From Sulfurospirillum sp. UBA12182 (GTDB lineage: Bacteria > Campylobacterota > Campylobacteria > Campylobacterales > Sulfurospirillaceae), in the NCBI GenBank assembly GCA_002742765.1, contig DLUF01000059.1:64125-115790 (forward strand): a stretch of 51,666 bases of DNA, read 5' to 3'. Below the pieces are notes generated by a model, which ran no database searches, had not been told where the DNA came from, and saw only the letters and a program-made list of their open reading frames with translations. The translations under genes were made by a program, and so were the position numbers. Numbering within the stretch: position 1 is the stretch's first letter; each line of letters begins with the position of its first letter. Shown here piece by piece: positions 20,744 through 40,260 of this stretch.

Positions 20744-20786
20744 TTGACACAAATCAATGTTTCTTCTAACCCCTCTCCTATATAAT
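20744..20786 (+). promoter_or_regulatory. Class II Crp/Fnr-type promoter of the DUF2249 operon
   Basis: The box TTGAC-ACAA-ATCAA at 20744-20757 matches the FNR-type consensus TTGAY-N4-RTCAA. A TATAAT -10 lies at 20781-20786, 23 nt further, so the box is centred about 42 nt before the predicted start. AGGAGT precedes the ATG at 20811. Confidence 0.75.
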
Positions 20787-22708: not shown

Positions 22709-23326
22709 ATGCAAGAGAAATTTCCAGAGTTTTTTAAAGAGGTAGAGAGTATCATCATGTATGACCCTTTGAGTGAAGTTTTAGGAAGTATCGAAGACGG
22801 AGTTATCTGTTTTTCTTATGGGCAGATTGTAAAAGCAGCAGGGCATAGTTGCCCAACAGTAGCGGGTGCATATCTTACATGTAAAAGAGCTTTGGAAGTT
22901 CTTTACCCCGAAAAACTACCTGTAAGAGGGGAGATACAAGTTGCATTTGCAAAGAGCCAACAAAGTGGCGTTACTGGAGTGGTCGCAAATGTGATGAGTC
23001 ATATCACAGGAGCTTGTGCAGAGGGAGGCTTTAAAGGTTTGAATGGCTCTTTTTCGAGACACTCTTTGCTTAGTTTTTCTGTCAATATGAGTTTACATGT
23101 AAAGCTTACAAGGCTTGATACAAACAAAAGCGTAGAACTCTTGTATAATCCAGATGTTATCCCTCCTAGTGTGAGGTTACAGGAGTTGATGAAAAAGGTT
23201 TTATCTCAAAATGCAGATCAAAAAGAGAAAAAAGAGTTTGGCTTGCTTTGGCAAGATAGAGTTAAGAAGATATTGATAGACAATAGGTATAATAAAGAGA
23301 TGATTATCATAAAAGAAGGAATATAG
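22709..23326 (+). CDS. FmdE-like protein
   Basis: 205 residues. GHSCPTVAGAYLTCKRALEVL (about 45-65) matches the GHxCPG-like N-terminal motif of FmdE proteins, named for molybdenum formylmethanofuran dehydrogenase operons, with the His and Cys as probable metal ligands; RGEIQVAFAKS and CAEGGFKGLNGSF follow. A TTACATGTAA copy lies inside the gene. FmdE function is unproven, though a metal- or heme-binding role has been suggested. It starts 1 nt after the DUF59 gene and its TAG shares a G with the start GTG of the next gene. Confidence 0.7.
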   Translation: MQEKFPEFFKEVESIIMYDPLSEVLGSIEDGVICFSYGQIVKAAGHSCPTVAGAYLTCKRALEVLYPEKLPVRGEIQVAFAKSQQSGVTGVVANVMSHITGACAEGGFKGLNGSFSRHSLLSFSVNMSLHVKLTRLDTNKSVELLYNPDVIPPSVRLQELMKKVLSQNADQKEKKEFGLLWQDRVKKILIDNRYNKEMIIIKEGI

Positions 23327-23967
23327 TGCAAAACCTAAGAACTATACCGATGTTTTCAAAGTTATGTGATGAGGGCATTGAAAAGCTTAAAGAGATTTCT
23401 ACTATAAGAAAATACAATGTTAAAGAGATTTTGTTTTATGAAGGGGAAGAACCTTTATATATGCATATACTTCTAAGCGGAACTTTGAGATTGTATAAGA
23501 CAAATTATAGGGGAAACCAAATCTTCTTGCATGATTTTAAACCTATCAACTTAGTTGCTGAGTTGGCTAATTTTGAAAATATCCCTTATCCTGCAACTGC
23601 CGAGTTTTCAAGTAGTGGCGAAGTGATGAAGATAGATTATAAAAAGTTAGAAGAAAACTTCTTTAAAAATCCCGATATCTCTTTAAATATCATCAAATCT
23701 CTTGCCTCAAAGCTTAAAATCATGTCTGAAGTTGTAACCAATGAGATTGTTTTAACCTCAGATGCAAAAGTGGCAAAATTTATTTATGAGAATGAAGAGT
23801 TATTTAATCAACTTAAAAACACGCAAATAGCTTCTTTACTAAACATAACACCAGAGACTCTTTCAAGGTCTTTGGCAAAGCTCAAAAAAGATGAAATTAT
23901 CAAGATAGACGAAAAACAAAATTTAACTATATTAGAGTATGAGGAATTAGAAAAACTTTTTGTTTGA
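23326..23967 (+). CDS. Crp/Fnr family transcriptional regulator 1
   Basis: 213 residues: cyclic-nucleotide-binding-like sensor domain (about 5-120) with ILFYEGEEPLYMHILLSGTLRLYK, dimer helix (about 120-150) and HTH domain (about 150-205). The recognition helix reads PETLSRSLAKL, keeping the E-x-x-S-R signature that reads TTGAY-N4-RTCAA half-sites in FNR. Only one Cys (C14) is present, so it cannot bind an FNR-type 4Fe-4S cluster and may sense NO or nitrite through another cofactor. The start codon is GTG. It is the fifth gene of the operon and a prime candidate for binding the four boxes found in this window. Confidence 0.88.
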   Translation: MQNLRTIPMFSKLCDEGIEKLKEISTIRKYNVKEILFYEGEEPLYMHILLSGTLRLYKTNYRGNQIFLHDFKPINLVAELANFENIPYPATAEFSSSGEVMKIDYKKLEENFFKNPDISLNIIKSLASKLKIMSEVVTNEIVLTSDAKVAKFIYENEELFNQLKNTQIASLLNITPETLSRSLAKLKKDEIIKIDEKQNLTILEYEELEKLFV

Positions 23968-24005
23968 CATGAATCAATGAAAAAAGAATTTATTTGATTT
24001 ACAAT
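23964..24005 (+). promoter_or_regulatory. Class II Crp/Fnr-type promoter of the second regulator gene
   Basis: TTGAC-ATGA-ATCAA at 23964-23977 overlaps the stop codon of regulator 1. The -10 TACAAT at 24000-24005 follows after 22 nt, giving a box centre near -41.5. GGAAGT precedes the ATG at 24033. Confidence 0.75.
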
Positions 24006-24032
24006 AAAAAATTTGGCATTGTAGGAAGTAAA

Positions 24033-24697
24033 ATGAACGAAAATGAGGTTTTAGACTATCTAAAAGAGGTGAATTTTTTTCTAAATTAGATGAACAAATT
24101 CTCCTAGAACTTTCTTCTTGTGCAAAGATTCAAAAAAGAAACGCTATGGATATCTTGTTTTACGAAAAAGAGGATAAACAAGAGGTTTATTATCTAGTGA
24201 GTGGTTCTTTGAAGTTTTACAAAGTAGATAGATTTGATAATGAGATATTTTTATATAAGCAAGAGGGAAACTCTCTTATCTACAATGTTTCTAAACTTTG
24301 CAGCGAGTATACTATAAGTTGTTATTCTAATGCAGAGTTTTTGGAAGATAGTGAAGTCATCATTTTTGATAGTCAAAGGTTTCAAGAACTTATCGCTACA
24401 CATCCTATGTTTATGAAGATGATTTTAAAAGAGTCTTTTATGATGATTCAAAAACTTCAGTGTATCATCTCTCGAGATATCGTCTATGATGGTACAGCAA
24501 AAGTTGCACATATGCTAGCAAATGACCTCCATAACTTCAACAAACTTAAAAAACATGAAATTGCTTATATGCTTCATATTCAGCCAGAAACACTCTCAAG
24601 AATTTTGAAAAAACTTATAAGAAGTGATATCATTGAGATTGATAAAAATAACGTAGTTATATTAGATTTGGAAGCTCTAAAAGAGATATATGAGTAG
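24033..24697 (+). CDS. Crp/Fnr family regulator 2, interrupted by a frameshift at a T7 tract
   Basis: The natural start is ATG 24033 (MNENEVLDYLKEVNF), but this frame stops at TAG 24087-24089. The matching downstream frame runs to 24697 and contains the rest of a Crp/Fnr protein (LFYEKEDKQEVYYLVSG; HTH with PETLSRILKKL). Reading one T twice in the T7 tract at 24074-24080 joins them into an intact 221-residue protein whose joint (NFFSKLDEQILLEL) aligns with MFSKLCDEGIEKL of regulator 1. The tract, aaT-TTT-TTT in frame, is also a canonical -1 slippery heptamer. Without slippage only an N-truncated form from ATG 24146 would be made, with a weak ribosome site. It has its own Crp/Fnr-type promoter. 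Confidence 0.75.
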
Positions 24698-24709: not shown

Positions 24710-26083
24710 ATGATAAAACCATCAGGAATAGCAAATAAGCTAAAATACATCGGGGGGATTCTCTCTTTTATCATCATTGCGGTTATAGTTTTAAATGTCA
24801 TTATGAATGATAAGAGTAAAAAAGATTCACTTATCATTAACATCGCTGGGAAACAAAGGATGCTTACTCAAAAAATGAGTAAGGAGATTTTTTATCTTAA
24901 ACAAAAAGACAGTATTGATTTTAGGGAATTAAACAGTGCTGTTGATGAGTTTAGCGAAAATCTCAAAGACCTTTTAGAAGGAAACAGTGTCAAAGGAATC
25001 TATCATCCACAAGATGAAAAGATAGAAGCAAAACTCCAAAAAGTTCAAAAAATCTGGTTTCCGTTTAAAGAAAAAATAGAAGCATTAAAAAAGCTGATAC
25101 AAGAGAATCAACCAGATATCGAATCTTTAACACAAAAAAATACATATCTTTTAAATCTCTCTGATGAGATAGTAAAGGTTATGGTTAAACACAATATGGA
25201 AGGTGTTTATATAGATTTTTCTGGTCGTCAAAGAATGTTATCTCAGAGAATGGGTCTTTTTATGGAGAGATATCTTAGAACTGACAATAAAGATGATTAT
25301 CTCAAATTTAAAAATGCAAGAGATTTATATGAGAAGACACTTTTGAGATTTATCAATGACGAGAGTGTCAAAGCTATCAAACAAGTTAATGATAAAGTTA
25401 TCGAATGTCACGGATACTGGCAAGAGTATGATGCTTATATCCACAAAGTGTTAAAACGAACAAATAGCATCAATGAAGCCATAGCTTATATCTATGAAAA
25501 GAACATAGAACTTTTAAATACAATGGATAGGGCAGTATGGCTCTATACAGAATATAGTGAAAAAAAGACTGCGATGTTTGATAAAATCCAGTACTTTGCG
25601 CTTATCATTGTTTTAGTGATTATCCTTTATACTTTCCTCATCACTAAAGAGGTTGTAACACATTTAAATGACTTCGTAAAGCAAGCAAAGGCACTCGAAG
25701 AGGCTGATTTGAGTGCTCTTAGCAAAGCAGATATACTTGTAGATGAAGAGAGTGAAGATGAGCTTAAAGTTGCCTCTACGCATATTAGTAACTTCGTACA
25801 AAAAGTTAACTCAGCGATGAATCACTCCCAAGATGCGATTAGTAAAGCAGAAGCAGCTGTCAAAGAGTTACAGTACTTAGCCGATGATGTGGAAAATGCC
25901 TTAGATGGGCTCAATATCGATGAAATCGAAAAGAGTAACTTTGATAAAAGAGTTAATGCAACTGAAGATATAGCCATAGAATCGGCTGAAAATCTTTTAC
26001 ATGTAAAGAAAATGCTAGAAAAACTTCAAGCAAATCTAAACTCTTTGATTGAAAAATCAGATAACAATATCTCTTCAAAATAA
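24710..26083 (+). CDS. Membrane sensor-like protein with two PilJ/NarX-type domains and no output domain
   Basis: 457 residues. Membrane spans at about 13-31 and 293-312 bracket a periplasmic region with two PilJ-type motifs, IINIAGKQRMLTQKMSKEI (about 43-61) and IDFSGRQRMLSQRMG (about 166-180), which resemble the P-box of NarX/NarQ nitrate sensors. The cytoplasmic tail (about 313-457) is a helical, HAMP-like coiled coil but lacks kinase, GGDEF or methyl-accepting signalling motifs. Position between two Crp/Fnr genes and nap suggests a nitrate/nitrite-sensing or modulating protein; this is inference. It starts 12 nt after regulator 2. Confidence 0.7.
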   Translation: MIKPSGIANKLKYIGGILSFIIIAVIVLNVIMNDKSKKDSLIINIAGKQRMLTQKMSKEIFYLKQKDSIDFRELNSAVDEFSENLKDLLEGNSVKGIYHPQDEKIEAKLQKVQKIWFPFKEKIEALKKLIQENQPDIESLTQKNTYLLNLSDEIVKVMVKHNMEGVYIDFSGRQRMLSQRMGLFMERYLRTDNKDDYLKFKNARDLYEKTLLRFINDESVKAIKQVNDKVIECHGYWQEYDAYIHKVLKRTNSINEAIAYIYEKNIELLNTMDRAVWLYTEYSEKKTAMFDKIQYFALIIVLVIILYTFLITKEVVTHLNDFVKQAKALEEADLSALSKADILVDEESEDELKVASTHISNFVQKVNSAMNHSQDAISKAEAAVKELQYLADDVENALDGLNIDEIEKSNFDKRVNATEDIAIESAENLLHVKKMLEKLQANLNSLIEKSDNNISSK

Positions 26084-26833: not shown

Positions 26834-29635
26834 ATGTCGCTTTCAAGAAGAGACTTTCTAAAGACAACAGCCGCAGCAAGTGCAGCCGCATGTGTGGGCA
26901 TAAGTGTTCCACAATCTGCAAAGGCAGCAGCAGCTCAAACGCAGGCTGATTGGAGATGGGACAAGGCAGTTTGTCGTTTCTGTGGTACTGGTTGTGGTAT
27001 CATGGTTGCTACAAAAGGCGGTAAAATTGTCGCAGTAAAAGGTGATCCGGCAGCTCCGGTCAATCGTGGGTTAAATTGTATCAAAGGATACTTTAACGCA
27101 AAAATCATGTATGGTGCAGACCGCCTTAAAGAGCCATTACTTCGTGTAAATGACAAAGGCGAGTTTGATAAAAATGGTAAATTCAAACCAGTAAGTTGGA
27201 AAAGAGCTTTCGATGAGATGGAAATCCATGCGAAAAAAGCTCTTAAAGCAAGTGGACCAGAGGGCGTAGCTGTATTTGCTTCAGGGCAATACATTATCAT
27301 GGAAGGTTATGCTGCTCAAAAGATGATGAAAGGTGGTTTTCGTTCAAACGCGATAGACCCAAATGCAAGACATTGTATGGCTTCAGCGGTTGTTGGTTTT
27401 TACCAAACATTTGGAATCGATGAGCCAAGTGGATGTTATGATGATATCGAACTTACTGATACTATCATTACTTGGGGCGCAAACATGGCGGAGATGCATC
27501 CGATTCTTTGGTCGCGTGTAAGCGATAGAAAACTAACTGATCCAGAGCGTGTAAAAGTAGTAAATATCTCTACTTATAGACACAGAGGATCTGACCTCTC
27601 AGATATCGAGATTATCTTCTCTCCAAGTACAGACCTTGCATTGTGGAACTACGTTGCAAGAGAAATCGTTTACAATCATCCAGAAGCGATTGATTGGGAT
27701 TTTGTAAAAAAACATATCGTTTTTGCATCACAGCCAGTAAATATCGGCTATGGTATGAGAAGAGCGGGTGAAAAATCCTTAAAAGAGGGAAAATACTCTC
27801 CTGAAGAAATGGAAATTATCAACAAAGAGATGAAAACAATTGTTTCTGAAAAAGAAGCTCCAGCACTTGAACCATTTGGATATAAAAAAGGCGATGTTAT
27901 GGAACATAAGCCAGCTGGATTGAAACACTGGGAAATCTCTTTTGAAGAGTATAAAAAATTCTTAGAGCCATATACACTTGATTATGTTGCTCGTATCTCT
28001 AAAGGTGATCCACTAGAAGACCTTGAAGAGTTCAAAGCAAAACTTCAAACATTGGCAGATTTATATGTTGAAAAAAGTAGAAAAGTAGTAAGTTTCTGGA
28101 CAATGGGTATGAACCAACACACAAGAGGTACTTGGGTCAACACTCTCTCTTATAACGTTCACTTCTTACTAGGTAAACAAGCAAAACCAGGCAATGGTGC
28201 ATTCTCACTAACAGGACAACCAAGTGCTTGTGGAACAGCTCGTGAAGTTGGAACATTCTGTCATAGACTTCCAGCTGATATGATGGTAGCAAATCCAAAA
28301 CATAGAGAAATTGTAGAAAATGTTTGGAAAGTTCCAGCAAAAACACTTAACCCAGTTGGCGACCAACACATTATGAAAATCCATAGAGATATCGAAGATG
28401 GTGTTGTAAAGTTTGCTTGGGTTAATGTTTGTAATCCATATCATGATAGTGCAAATGCAAATCACTGGATTAAAGCAGCACGCCAAATGGATAACTTTAT
28501 CGTTTGTTCTGATGGATATCCTGGAATCTCAGCAAAAGTAGCTGACCTTATACTTCCTAGTGCTATGATCTATGAGAAGTGGGGAGCATACGGTAACGCT
28601 GAACGTCGTACACAACACTGGAGACAGCAAGTTCTTCCAGTTGGCGATGCGATGAGTGATACATGGCAATGGGTAGAACTCTCAAAAAGATTTACAGTCA
28701 AAGATGTATGGGGTGAATACACACTTCGTGGTGGTGCAAAACTTCCTAGCGTTATAGAAGAAGCTAAGAAGATGGGTTACAGCGAAGATACAACTATGTT
28801 TGAAATTCTTTTTGCAAATGAGAGAGCAAAATCTTATAAGATAGACTTAAATGACCCTATCCAAGCTGGATATGACAACAGTGAGTGTATCGGAGATAGC
28901 AGAAATGTTATCGGTTCAGATGGAAAAGTATTTGAAGGTTATCAATTCTTCCTCCATAAATATCTTTTTGAAGAGTATGCAGATTTTGGTCGTGGACATG
29001 CACATGACTTGGCTGATTTTGATACTTATCATAGAGTAAGAGGTCTTAAATGGCCAGTTGTTGATGGTAAAGAGACTCAATGGAGATTTAATGCCAAGTA
29101 TGACCCATATGCGGCAAAAGCGGCAAATGGTGAGGATTTCGCATTTTATGGAACACTTGCTAAAGCCTTAGCGCAAGGAGATTTAAAAGGTATCACAGAT
29201 AAAAATCCAAAATCTCTCAAAAACAAAGCAAAAATCTTTGCACGCCCATATATGGATCCACCAGAGATGCCAGATGATAAGTATGATATGTGGATGTGTA
29301 CAGGACGTGTGTTAGAACACTGGCATAGTGGAACGATGACGATGAGAGTTCCTGAACTTTATCGTGCTGTTCCTGAAGCTCTTTGTTATATGCACCCGCA
29401 AGATGCTACGGCTAAAGGTTTTATTCAAGGTGAAATGATTTGGGTTGAATCTCGTCGTGGTAGAGTAAAAGCAAGAGTAGAGACAAGAGGAAGAAACAGA
29501 ACTCCAAGAGGTCTTATCTTTGTTCCTTGGTTTGATGAAAAAGTGTTTATAAACAAAGTTTGTTTAGATGCTACTTGTCCTCTTTCAAAGCAGACAGATT
29601 ACAAGAAGTGCGCAGTCAAGCTTTATAAAGCATAG
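26834..29635 (+). CDS. napA: Periplasmic nitrate reductase catalytic subunit NapA
   Basis: 933 residues, close to the 924-928 residues of Campylobacter and Wolinella NapA. The twin-arginine signal [16 protein letters not shown] leads to cleavage after QSAKAAA or nearby. The 4Fe-4S ligands are C47, C50, C54 and the Cys in NCIKGYF (about 82); the molybdenum-ligand Cys is in [12 protein letters not shown] (about 176). Insertions such as 310-380 are typical of the epsilonproteobacterial form. It reduces nitrate to nitrite in the periplasm using bis-MGD, receiving electrons from NapB. It is first in napAGHBFLD. Confidence 0.97.
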
Positions 29636-29675: not shown

Positions 29676-29693
29676 ATGAAAGGGTTGTTTTGA
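29676..29693 (+). CDS. Possible five-residue leader ORF coupled to napG
   Basis: ATG AAA GGG TTG TTT TGA encodes MKGLF. It follows a purine-rich AAAGAAGAAA stretch and its stop TGA overlaps the napG TTG start (TTGA), a layout that would let ribosomes finishing the short ORF re-initiate on the weak napG start. No protein function is implied. Confidence 0.3.
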   Translation: MKGLF

Positions 29694-30514
29694 GCAATCT
29701 TAGTAAAAAAGCGACCATTAGTGATAGAAGAAGATTTATATCCCTGATGGCGCAAAGTATCGGATTATCGGCATTAGGCGGAATGATTTGGACTGGGTAT
29801 ATACAAGAAGCAAAGTCAGCACCACTGATTTTGCGACCACCAGGAGCCAAAAATGAGCTTGATTTTTTGCGTATGTGTATCAAGTGTGGGCAATGTGCAT
29901 TAGCCTGTCCATACGATACTCTAAACATCGCAAAACCAGGTGACAATATGCCAGTGGGTACACCATATTTTATACCAAGAGAGATTCCTTGTTATATGTG
30001 TACTGATATCCCATGCGTTCCTGTTTGCCCTACTGGGGCATTGGATGAGAGTAGTGTTTCTAAAGTAGAAGATGGAAGAACAGTTTTGGAGATTAAAAAA
30101 GCCAAGATGGGTTTAGCCGTTGTTGATGAAGAGTCTTGTATCGCATTTTGGGGGATTCAATGTGATGCATGTTATAGAGCTTGTCCATTGCTAGATGAGG
30201 CTATAACACTCGAATACAAAAGAAACACTAGAACAGGAAAACATGCATACTTAGTACCTAAAGTCATCTCTGACGTTTGCACTGGATGTGGTTTGTGCGA
30301 ACGTGCTTGTGTGACCAAGAAGGCAGCTATTTTTGTGTTGCCTCGTGAAGTTTCACAAGGAGATTTAGGAGATCACTATATAAAAGGATGGGATAAAGCT
30401 GATGAGAAACGTTTGAAAAATGTTTCCACAGAGGTTACAACCCAAACAACAAGGAGTGAAAAGACACCACAAGATTATCTAAATGATGATGGAGGGCTAT
30501 TTAACAATGAGTAA
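29690..30514 (+). CDS. napG: Ferredoxin-type protein NapG
   Basis: 274 residues. A Tat signal (SDRRRFISLMAQSIGLSALGG) exports the folded Fe-S protein. Four 4Fe-4S motifs follow: CIKCGQCALACP (about 64-75), CYMCTDIPCVPVCP (about 103-116), CDACYRACP (about 160) and CTGCGLCERAC (about 197). With NapH it replaces NapC in passing electrons from menaquinol to NapB/NapA. The start is TTG 29690, whose TG overlaps the TGA of a five-codon mini-ORF beginning at ATG 29676. The 3' end overlaps napH. Confidence 0.93.
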   Translation: MSNLSKKATISDRRRFISLMAQSIGLSALGGMIWTGYIQEAKSAPLILRPPGAKNELDFLRMCIKCGQCALACPYDTLNIAKPGDNMPVGTPYFIPREIPCYMCTDIPCVPVCPTGALDESSVSKVEDGRTVLEIKKAKMGLAVVDEESCIAFWGIQCDACYRACPLLDEAITLEYKRNTRTGKHAYLVPKVISDVCTGCGLCERACVTKKAAIFVLPREVSQGDLGDHYIKGWDKADEKRLKNVSTEVTTQTTRSEKTPQDYLNDDGGLFNNE

Positions 30515-37015: not shown

Positions 37016-39175
37016 ATGAAACTTAAGATAAAAAATATCTTTTTTGATGCTTATTCACACGATCAAATCAAGGATATGATTCACTCTTTGAATCTTACAA
37101 CCTTGTTGATTCATCTTGTTATTCCTGTTTTGATTTTCGGTCTTTTTTTTAGTCAACTCAATGGTTACATACTTTTTTTATGGCTTGCTTTGCAATTTTC
37201 TACGATTTTTATAAGAATGTATATAGGAAACTGCTTAAATGAAACAGCTGAAAATGGACTGTTTGATAGAGATTTTTTTAGATACTATTTGGGTATTATC
37301 TTTTTTAGTGGTGCGTTGTGGGGAGCTTTTTTCGCCTATGCTATTTTTGCTCTAGAACCACTTTATGTTTTCTTTTTGATTACCATTCTTTTTGCTCTAT
37401 CTGCTGGTTCGATTTTGACTTTAGGATCTGTATTGATAGCTGTTGTTCTTTTTAATATCTCTTTAATTCTTCCTCCGATTGTCTCTTTGTTGTTCATCGC
37501 TTCTAGTGGGATTTATTATGTGCAAATCATTTTAATTTTTGCATTTTTATTTGTAACTCTTACAAATTCTTATAAAAAACATACACTTTCAAGAAAAAGC
37601 TCTTCAAGTATGACTCTCTTAAAACAATATGAAAATATTACAAATCAAAGTACTATAATTTCTAAGACAGATCCAAGAGGGATTATCACATTTGCAAATG
37701 ATAACTTTTGTAAAATCTCTGGATACAACAAAGAGGAACTTATAGGGCAAAGGCATAACATCATACGTCATCCTGAGATGCCACGTGTTGCTTTTGAGGA
37801 TATGTGGAAAACTATCAAGTCAAAAAAAACTTGGCATGGAGTTGTCAAAAATAGAGCAAAAAATGGTGATGCTTACTATGTAAGCACGACTATCACACCT
37901 ATCTTAGATATTGATGGAGAAATCCAAGAGTATATAGCTTTGCGCCACGATATAAGTTCTATCATGAGTGATAAAAAACAACTTTTTGACTATCTTGAGG
38001 CAAATAAACTAAGCGTTTTAATCATGATTCAAATCGAAGATTATGATGTGTTAGAAAAGTTTTATGATAAAGCAACTGTTGAAGAGATTGAAAAAAGTTT
38101 CGGTGATGTGATTTTGCATTTGCTTCCAAATTCTTGCGATTTTCAAAGAGTTTATCATCTAGGAAATGGCTTATATGCTCTTGCTAAAAACAGAAGAACT
38201 TGTCAAAAATCTCAAGAACAAATAGAAGAATTTTTAAAAGAGTTTTTAGAAAATGTCAAAGATTATACTGTTAAACTCGATAAGATTGAGTATGATATCT
38301 CAGCGATTTGTAGTTACACCTATGGGGTTATACAAATCTATGAAGATGCAAAGATAGGAATTGAAAAAGCGATAGAAAACAAACAAAATCTCATCTATGC
38401 TGATGGACTTTCAGGTATCGAGTATGCCGCTGCTTTACAAAATATAGAAACACTTCATATCCTCAAAGTAGCACTAGATGACAAGAAAGTTATCTCCTTT
38501 TTTCAGCCTATTATCAACAATGAAACAAAAAAAGTCGAAAAATATGAGTCTTTAGTGAGGCTTATTAATGAGCATGGTGAGGTTATCTCTCCTTTTGCAT
38601 TTCTTGAAGTTGCAAAAAAAGGGCGTTACTATACTCAAGTAACAAAGATAGTTTTAGAGAACTCATTTAAAACTCTCAAAGTTACAGATAAAGAGATATC
38701 CATAAATCTTTCTCCTCTTGATATAGAAAATGAAGATATCAGAGATTTGATTTTTGAACTTTTGATTAAAAATAAAGAGGATTCTAAACGGATTGTTTTT
38801 GAACTTGTTGAGAGCGAGGATGTAAAAGATTTTGATACGATTATAAGGTTTATTCAACAAGTAAAACCTTATGGTGTCAAGATAGCGATAGATGATTTTG
38901 GAACTGGTTATTCAAATTTTGAGAGACTCTTACAGTATGAGCCAGATTTGTTAAAGATTGATGGTAGCTTGATTAAAAACATAAAAGATAATCGCTTAAG
39001 TAAAGATATCGTTGAGACGATAGTTTTGTTTGCTCAAAAACAAAAGATTAAAACTGTTGCAGAGTTTGTTGAAAATGAAGAAATCTTCAACATCGTCAAA
39101 GGATTAGGTATAGACTATTCTCAAGGGTATGCTTTTGGACGACCTGAAGATTTACTCAAAGAGTTTATCTCTTAA
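37016..39175 (+). CDS. Membrane PAS-EAL protein with a degenerate GGDEF domain
   Basis: 719 residues. Six or seven membrane spans (about 25-190), an Aer-like PAS domain (about 205-320; IIRHPEMPRVAFEDMW), a GGDEF-like segment (about 330-470) without any GGDEF signature, and an EAL domain (about 480-715). EAL catalytic residues are kept: ESLVRL, NLSP, FELVESE, IDDFGTGYSN, LKIDGSLI and AEFVENEE. It should be a c-di-GMP phosphodiesterase governed by a redox or respiration-linked signal. ATG 37016 is preferred over GTG 37013. Its end overlaps the convergent permease gene by 11 nt. Confidence 0.85.
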   Translation: MKLKIKNIFFDAYSHDQIKDMIHSLNLTTLLIHLVIPVLIFGLFFSQLNGYILFLWLALQFSTIFIRMYIGNCLNETAENGLFDRDFFRYYLGIIFFSGALWGAFFAYAIFALEPLYVFFLITILFALSAGSILTLGSVLIAVVLFNISLILPPIVSLLFIASSGIYYVQIILIFAFLFVTLTNSYKKHTLSRKSSSSMTLLKQYENITNQSTIISKTDPRGIITFANDNFCKISGYNKEELIGQRHNIIRHPEMPRVAFEDMWKTIKSKKTWHGVVKNRAKNGDAYYVSTTITPILDIDGEIQEYIALRHDISSIMSDKKQLFDYLEANKLSVLIMIQIEDYDVLEKFYDKATVEEIEKSFGDVILHLLPNSCDFQRVYHLGNGLYALAKNRRTCQKSQEQIEEFLKEFLENVKDYTVKLDKIEYDISAICSYTYGVIQIYEDAKIGIEKAIENKQNLIYADGLSGIEYAAALQNIETLHILKVALDDKKVISFFQPIINNETKKVEKYESLVRLINEHGEVISPFAFLEVAKKGRYYTQVTKIVLENSFKTLKVTDKEISINLSPLDIENEDIRDLIFELLIKNKEDSKRIVFELVESEDVKDFDTIIRFIQQVKPYGVKIAIDDFGTGYSNFERLLQYEPDLLKIDGSLIKNIKDNRLSKDIVETIVLFAQKQKIKTVAEFVENEEIFNIVKGLGIDYSQGYAFGRPEDLLKEFIS

Positions 39176-40208
39176 GTAGATATCTAGCAAACAAGCCAAA
39201 CATCAAGAGTGACGAGAACATATCAAGATAAGAGATGTTTTCTTCCTCAATCATGCTGTTTTTTATATCTTTTATGTTCTCAAAAAAGAGTAAATCAAGC
39301 ATATAAGCAAAAAATACACTTCCAAAAATAACAGAAAAAAGATAAATAAAGAGTGATTTAGGCCCTAAGATGTTTTTTACTACACTGATGGTCACTAGAT
39401 TTGTAGCAGGACCAGCACTCAAAAAAACAAAAGCACTCCCTGGAGAAAAACCTGTAAGGATAAGCGTTAAGCCAATGGGCAAGGAAGTAAGCGCACAAAC
39501 ATACATAGGTGCTGAGATAAGGATAAGAAAAAGATAGCTTAAAAGTAAGTTGTCAGTAAAAAAATCAGAAAACTCTTTTGGGATGATAGATGCAAAAAAT
39601 GCACCTAAAACGATACCTATCAAAAGAGACTTTGCGATACCTTTAAAAAGCATATCAAAAGCATAAGAAAAAACTCTTTTGACAAAGGGTTTTTGATGTG
39701 GTGTTATTTGTTTGAGTAAAAGAGGCGTTGCTTTAGGTTTTGCTACTCCCCAAAGAGAAGTTATGGGCTTTTCTTTTACGAAGAGCATAGATAAAAAACC
39801 AGCTAACAAAGAGATACAAACAGAGCTAATAACTCGATAAAGAGTAAAAAACCAACCAAATGCTCCATAGGTAGCCATGATAGAATCAACCCCTGTGATA
39901 GGCGTTGCGATAAGAAAGGTTTGCAAAGCACTTTTACTGGCACCACTTTTTTGCAATGAAGATGCAAAAGGTATAACAGAACAAGAACAAAGTGGGAGAG
40001 GAATCCCTAAGATAGCTGCTTTTATAACTGAGCTAAAAGAGTCTTTGCCTATATGCTTTTTTATATAATCATCGCTGATAATCTGTTTTATAACTCCTGC
40101 AAAAAGAAGACCAAAAAGGATATAAAAAGAGATGAGATTTGTAAAATGCCAAATATTTTGTAAAAAAGAGTATAGAAAATCCACATTTAATCCTAAATCA
40201 ATAATCAT
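39165..40208 (-). CDS. SO_0444-type permease (putative Cu/Zn efflux), start possibly GTG 40184
   Basis: Up to 347 residues with about eight spans. The family motif PLCSCSVIPFASSLQKSGASKS (start near 75) has the CSC metal-binding cysteines, and TPITGVDS follows. Relatives were linked to copper or zinc efflux. ATG 40208 lies only about 4 nt from the predicted transcription start, so translation would be leaderless; GTG 40184 (residue 9) has AGGA 6 nt upstream and may be the true start. A Crp/Fnr-type promoter lies upstream. Confidence 0.75.
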   Translation of the reverse strand: MIIDLGLNVDFLYSFLQNIWHFTNLISFYILFGLLFAGVIKQIISDDYIKKHIGKDSFSSVIKAAILGIPLPLCSCSVIPFASSLQKSGASKSALQTFLIATPITGVDSIMATYGAFGWFFTLYRVISSVCISLLAGFLSMLFVKEKPITSLWGVAKPKATPLLLKQITPHQKPFVKRVFSYAFDMLFKGIAKSLLIGIVLGAFFASIIPKEFSDFFTDNLLLSYLFLILISAPMYVCALTSLPIGLTLILTGFSPGSAFVFLSAGPATNLVTISVVKNILGPKSLFIYLFSVIFGSVFFAYMLDLLFFENIKDIKNSMIEEENISYLDMFSSLLMFGLFARYLLKR

Positions 40209-40218
40209 TATCGTTTGA

Positions 40219-40260
40219 ATTATATAGTGTTAGTTCAAATATTTTCTTGACAGGAATCAA
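40219..40260 (-). promoter_or_regulatory. Class II Crp/Fnr-type promoter of the permease gene
   Basis: The near-palindromic box at 40247-40260 reads TTGACAGGAATCAA on the plus strand and lies in the last codons of the upstream methyltransferase gene. On the minus strand TATAAT is at 40219-40224, exactly 22 nt away, the same spacing as the three other boxes of this type. Confidence 0.65.

Follow-up and report, generated by a model that had tools for sequence, protein, structure and literature searches.

A private one-base break in a Crp/Fnr-type regulator gene beside the nap genes of a Sulfurospirillum genome looks like a mutation or sequence error rather than a genetic switch

A stretch of 51,666 nt of the Sulfurospirillum sp. 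UBA12182 genome (GCA_002742765.1, contig DLUF01000059.1, positions 64,125 to 115,790 of the forward strand; referred to here as the window) contains a Crp/Fnr-type regulator gene whose frame is broken near its start, next to a run of seven T residues, raising the question of whether the break represents a genetic switch, a form of recoding, a recent mutation, or an error in the sequence. As described in an initial annotation of this DNA, the ATG at 24033–24035 opens the frame MNENEVLDYLKEVNFFLN, which is closed by a TAG at 24087–24089, and a −1 shift around the T7 tract (24074–24080) joins this short piece to a second open stretch, restoring a full 221-residue protein with recognizable Crp/Fnr domains (Table 1). 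The LKEVNFF residues of the short zero-frame fragment align with LKEIPFF in orthologues; after the break, 205 codons follow without any stop, up to the stop codon at 24695–24697. The first ATG, GTG, or TTG of the −1 frame is located at 24146 and residues 1–37 therefore require the shift. Internal initiation in the correct frame was rejected, as no start codon of these types precedes 24146 and none lies 5–13 bases past the GAGGTGA element.

Table 1. Features of the broken Crp/Fnr gene and its surroundings (positions in the window).
Feature	Position	Strand	Evidence
Intact Crp/Fnr paralogue located upstream (33% identity); its GTG start overlaps the stop before it	23326..23967	+	Pfam, tree
TTGACATGAATCAA, perfect TTGA-N6-TCAA Crp/Fnr (Nss) box	23964..23977	+	Motif match
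TACAAT, likely −10 element of the gene's own promoter	24000..24005	+	Weak consensus match; spacing to box inferred
AGGAAG ribosome-binding site	24023..24028	+	Sequence
Zero-frame 5′ fragment of the Crp/Fnr gene, 18 codons and TAG	24033..24089	+	Sequence, translation
−1 frame open stretch, residues 17–221 of the Crp/Fnr protein	24047..24697	+	Orthologues in 38/44 family genomes
SD-like GAGGTGA (codons GAG GTG A), almost touching the T tract	24066..24072	+	Sequence; interval from PMC4066793
T7 tract, formal T_TTT_TTT heptamer in the zero frame	24074..24080	+	Sequence; same zero-frame tract in orthologues L012, L160, L171, L034, L036, L038
PilJ-domain protein gene, conserved downstream partner	24710..26083	+	Pfam PF13675, E = 6.9e-26
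napA, periplasmic nitrate reductase catalytic subunit	26834..29635	+	NCBIfam NF010055, over cut-off
napG, ferredoxin-type protein	29690..30514	+	NCBIfam NF007012, over cut-off

The joined protein matched the Pfam family HTH_Crp_2 (PF13545, E = 1.8e-11) above its cut-off and cNMP_binding (PF00027, E = 8e-6) just under it (26.2 bits vs. a cut-off of 27.5); the best match among solved structures was DNR of Pseudomonas aeruginosa (PDB 3dkw, E = 1.9e-7). Genome searches identified orthologues with 52–70% identity in Sulfurospirillum and related Campylobacterota, and an orthologue (E ≤ 1e-40) was present in 38 of the 44 genomes of the family, none of them with stops in the matched frame; on these comparisons, the gene is a real, family-wide orthologue. 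At the same threshold, five of 38 good family genomes had no match, suggesting that loss of this regulator gene is tolerated. In a phylogenetic tree, the window gene grouped with those of the congeners UBA6810 and Kmv13 (support 95/90), clearly apart from the paralogue located upstream. The initial annotation had relied on the alignment with this paralogue; while the upstream gene is a paralogue, it is a distant one (33% identity, in a separate supported clade), and the convincing alignment is the one with the orthologues at 52–70% identity.

By analogy with NssA/B/C of Wolinella (PMC6682613; PMC11539149), the natural reading of the intact product would be a regulator of the Dnr/Nss type for nitrate or nitrogen-oxide respiration. 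The window protein is like these regulators (i.e., P. aeruginosa DNR, Wolinella succinogenes NssA/NssB, and Campylobacter jejuni NssR) in combining cNMP-binding-like and Crp HTH domains and in presenting an E-T-L-S-R recognition helix, and the gene lies, as in this class, beside nap with a TTGA-N6-TCAA box; the likeness is thus one of domains, neighbourhood, and box. Unlike in these regulators, the frame of the window gene is broken after codon 16.

The PilJ-domain gene adjoins the Crp/Fnr gene in nearly all loci compared, and in many of them napA and napG lie further downstream. In Kmv13 (L104:1-14500, G002:C7), the Crp/Fnr–PilJ pair is located downstream of napA/napG, apart from the paralogue cluster, suggesting that the nap regulators have changed order within the genus. 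A perfect match to TTGA-N6-TCAA, the consensus used for Nss regulators (PMC11539149), is located 69 bases before the ATG in the window and 74 bases before the ATG in Kmv13 (L013). As about three perfect matches would be expected by chance in the window, the argument is carried by the position of the box and by its Kmv13 copy. If TACAAT represents the −10 element, the centre of the box would be located approximately 41.5 bases before the predicted transcription start. A centre near −41.5 is the position of class II Fnr-type activation. The probable Crp/Fnr-type promoter of the window gene has thus been kept. Further perfect TTGA-N6-TCAA boxes were found at 20744–20757, which is 54 bases before an ATG (20811) of the cluster that precedes the paralogue, and at 40247–40260, just upstream of a minus-strand permease-like gene (39165–40208).

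Comparison with relatives, proposed in the initial annotation as a way to check the split, yielded intact, single-frame orthologues and showed the split to be private to the window genome. The N-terminal codons share a single frame in each of 41 distinct orthologous coding sequences, and every relative whose N-terminus could be read passes the joint without a shift; the only exception to an intact frame (L040) is broken elsewhere in the gene. This sequence, from Sulfurospirillum sp. S9C671, presents its own one-base insertion mid-gene (L040:5299-5321), where an A4 run has become A5 as compared to the near-identical L017 and L022. The relatives share a conserved N-terminal segment, LKE-x-PFF-x-x-LD, and the N-terminus of the window gene is therefore homologous and the break private; an unrelated N-terminus, which the annotation had named as the outcome that would speak against its proposal, was not found, LKExxFFxxLD being common to the relatives. 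The dN between the window gene and L012 was 0.206, as compared to 0.244 between two intact congeners, which shows, at the level of the coding sequence, that the body of the gene is under ordinary purifying selection. An old pseudogene was thus rejected, as the gene has no stops and dN is not raised; the lack of stops and of excess amino-acid changes is consistent with either an error or a very recent mutation. The window gene resembles the singleton frameshifted genes and pseudogenes reported with GeneTack (PMC3711429) in that it presents one private frameshift, homology to intact orthologues, and no conserved frameshift site. However, it carries no second lesion or decay, unlike the singleton pseudogene class, suggesting that the break is either very recent or an artefact.

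The T run consists of exactly seven residues flanked by A and C, and its zero-frame reading is aaT TTT TTT. The same T7, in the same zero frame and within an intact gene, is present in six relatives (L012, L160, L171, L034, L036, and L038), where the codons are (C/A)CT or GAT followed by TTT TTT; the tract is in the zero frame in these relatives because it encodes the conserved Phe-Phe. The heptamer can therefore be read as a by-product of the protein sequence, arising from two Phe codons in an A+T-rich genome (G+C of 34% in the 603 kb sampled). In 540 kb of ORFs from this genome, we counted 187 T7, 33 T8, and 447 A7 runs; T7 is thus not rare, and T8 is the longest class of T run, with no T9. 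No match to the tract was found in viral contigs. The initial annotation placed the lesion as one missing T within the tract. While one base is indeed missing, its placement in the tract is a presumption, since the nearest relative, L012, also has T7 and the alignment gap falls just 3′ of the tract, before the LDE codons; the missing base is therefore not assignable to the T run, and the alignment locates it no more closely than somewhere from the conserved FF codons to the LDE codons.

The tract does form a −1 slippery heptamer in phase, as the initial annotation had pointed out; however, T_TTT_TTT is found in frame at 122 other sites in 568 ORFs of the genome, as compared to 188 expected from codon shuffles, and orthologues need no shift. 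The heptamer is common in this genome and, if anything, avoided. It is very improbable that the full protein is restored by recoding, whether by −1 ribosomal frameshifting at U_UUU_UUU or by transcriptional slippage at U7. The heptamer is in the right zero frame, with a zero-frame stop six bases further on and constrained codons downstream of the break, and U_UU.U_UU.U without stimulators shifts at >0.10% in E. coli, where the most efficient heptamers do not go beyond about 0.3% (PMC4066793). The window gene also shares with genes subject to −1 programmed ribosomal frameshifting (X_XXY_YYZ; PMC4066793) an SD-like element, GAGGTGA, directly upstream of the formal heptamer; its GAGG (24066–24069), however, is at the very outer edge of the 6–17 nt interval in which such elements are reported to be stimulatory (PMC4066793). 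In contrast to those genes, the window site is not conserved as a frameshift, the orthologues are read in one frame, and a shift would destroy the protein in the relatives with the same T7. No stimulatory RNA fold was found downstream of the heptamer, where the sequence folds no better than its shuffles (z = 0.04). As for transcriptional slippage, selection against runs is evident mainly from nine A or T upward (PMC1088944), with shorter runs able to slip in some organisms. Slippery-tract recoding is thus not supported for a heptamer that represents Phe-Phe codons in relatives and is depleted genome-wide.

Slipped-strand phase variation, in which the regulator would be off in the T7 cells and on in the T8 cells of one mixed population, appears unlikely. 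The window gene has a homopolymer near the ORF start, as do homopolymer phase-variable genes of Campylobacter, a genus of the same phylum (PMC6321876); the break is close to the start of a regulator gene, where a shift would turn the product cleanly on or off, and the T8 state would rank among the longest T runs of the genome's ORFs. A search of the genome for MutL gave no match, as compared to matches in 11 of 14 control genomes, suggesting that slips in the tract may be poorly repaired; such poor repair would favour a single slip just as it would a switch. The cut-offs used for phase-variable tracts in Campylobacter are, however, ≥7 for G/C and ≥10 for A/T (PMC6321876), the latter exceeding both T7 and T8. 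In addition, relatives show no frame-breaking variation in tract length, many of them lacking the tract and others carrying it in the zero frame, and the deletion is not assignable to the T tract. A phase-variable switch was thus not supported, as the split is private and the known phase-variable tracts of A/T are far longer. The window genome (G000) does have two matches to the MutS family (C61 and C96), and one of these proteins may be MutS2.

We consider it highly unlikely that a nap-linked Dnr/Nss-type regulator is reversibly switched between T7 and T8 without MutL, with low-level −1 slippage providing trace amounts of the regulator in the off state. Similarly, the suggestion of the initial annotation that a slippery or phase-variable tract would switch an entire respiratory regulon on and off found no support, given a private split, a tract that is too short, and depleted heptamers.

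A sequence or assembly error, in which the organism's gene is intact and the draft consensus lacks one of its bases, is possible and is put forward tentatively. The assembly is a draft of 120 contigs, the break is a singleton adjoining a homopolymer, and the codons downstream look fully constrained; homology-supported singleton frameshifts are, as an expectation of the GeneTack authors, mostly sequencing errors (PMC3711429), and a separate draft (L040) has a private homopolymer indel in the same gene. On the other hand, in a comparison of the congener's (G002) proteins against 892 kb of the 2.25 Mb genome, covering 376 genes and approximately 119,000 aligned residues, the Crp/Fnr gene was the sole genuinely broken frame. 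No second frameshift was thus found in 376 genes despite the 187 T7 and 447 A7 runs in 540 kb of ORFs, while a homopolymer-weak technology would yield many breaks; the assembly is therefore not of the homopolymer-error kind, and a generally poor assembly was rejected as an explanation. Other loci flagged in the census were set aside. L058 (around 17850, G000:C90) is selD, encoding selenophosphate synthase, with an in-frame TGA (KAAG-TGA-AAKLAPG) that is conserved in the congener (L067), and on this sequence evidence is a selenoprotein gene rather than a frameshift; L093 represented a tRNA-like match, and L048, L055, L054, L081, L197, and L205 represented over-extended reference starts or ordinary non-ATG starts.

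We favour a recent, strain-private one-base deletion, with a probability of roughly one half (0.5). In this reading, an ordinary Dnr/Nss-like Crp/Fnr gene of the nap neighbourhood would have lost one base recently and in this lineage only, no more than about 10 bases past codon 15 and probably through slippage in the T run; translation would end after 18 codons, so that the sequenced strain or population would make no, or almost no, full-length regulator. We infer that the base is truly absent in the organism, that the lost base is a T, and that the regulator is non-functional; broad conservation of the gene argues mildly against loss. From the causes listed in the initial annotation, recent mutation and sequencing error survive, while phase variation and slippage are not supported, given the private split and the lack of a stimulatory structure; the break has the appearance of an ordinary one-off mutation or sequence error, and not of a switch built into the genome. 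If the deletion is real, the strain no longer has a conserved regulator encoded next to its nitrate reductase genes and may represent a natural knock-out for the barely studied Crp/Fnr–PilJ pair. A genetic switch, if true, would matter more; no evidence here points that way. The case also shows that, when a genome is A+T-rich, a slippery heptamer in phase says little in favour of recoding. A separate run, G6, is located near the start of the PilJ-domain gene (24752–24757), where the relative L017 has G5; at one base below the usual poly-G cut-off for phase variation, it is a rather better candidate tract than T7.
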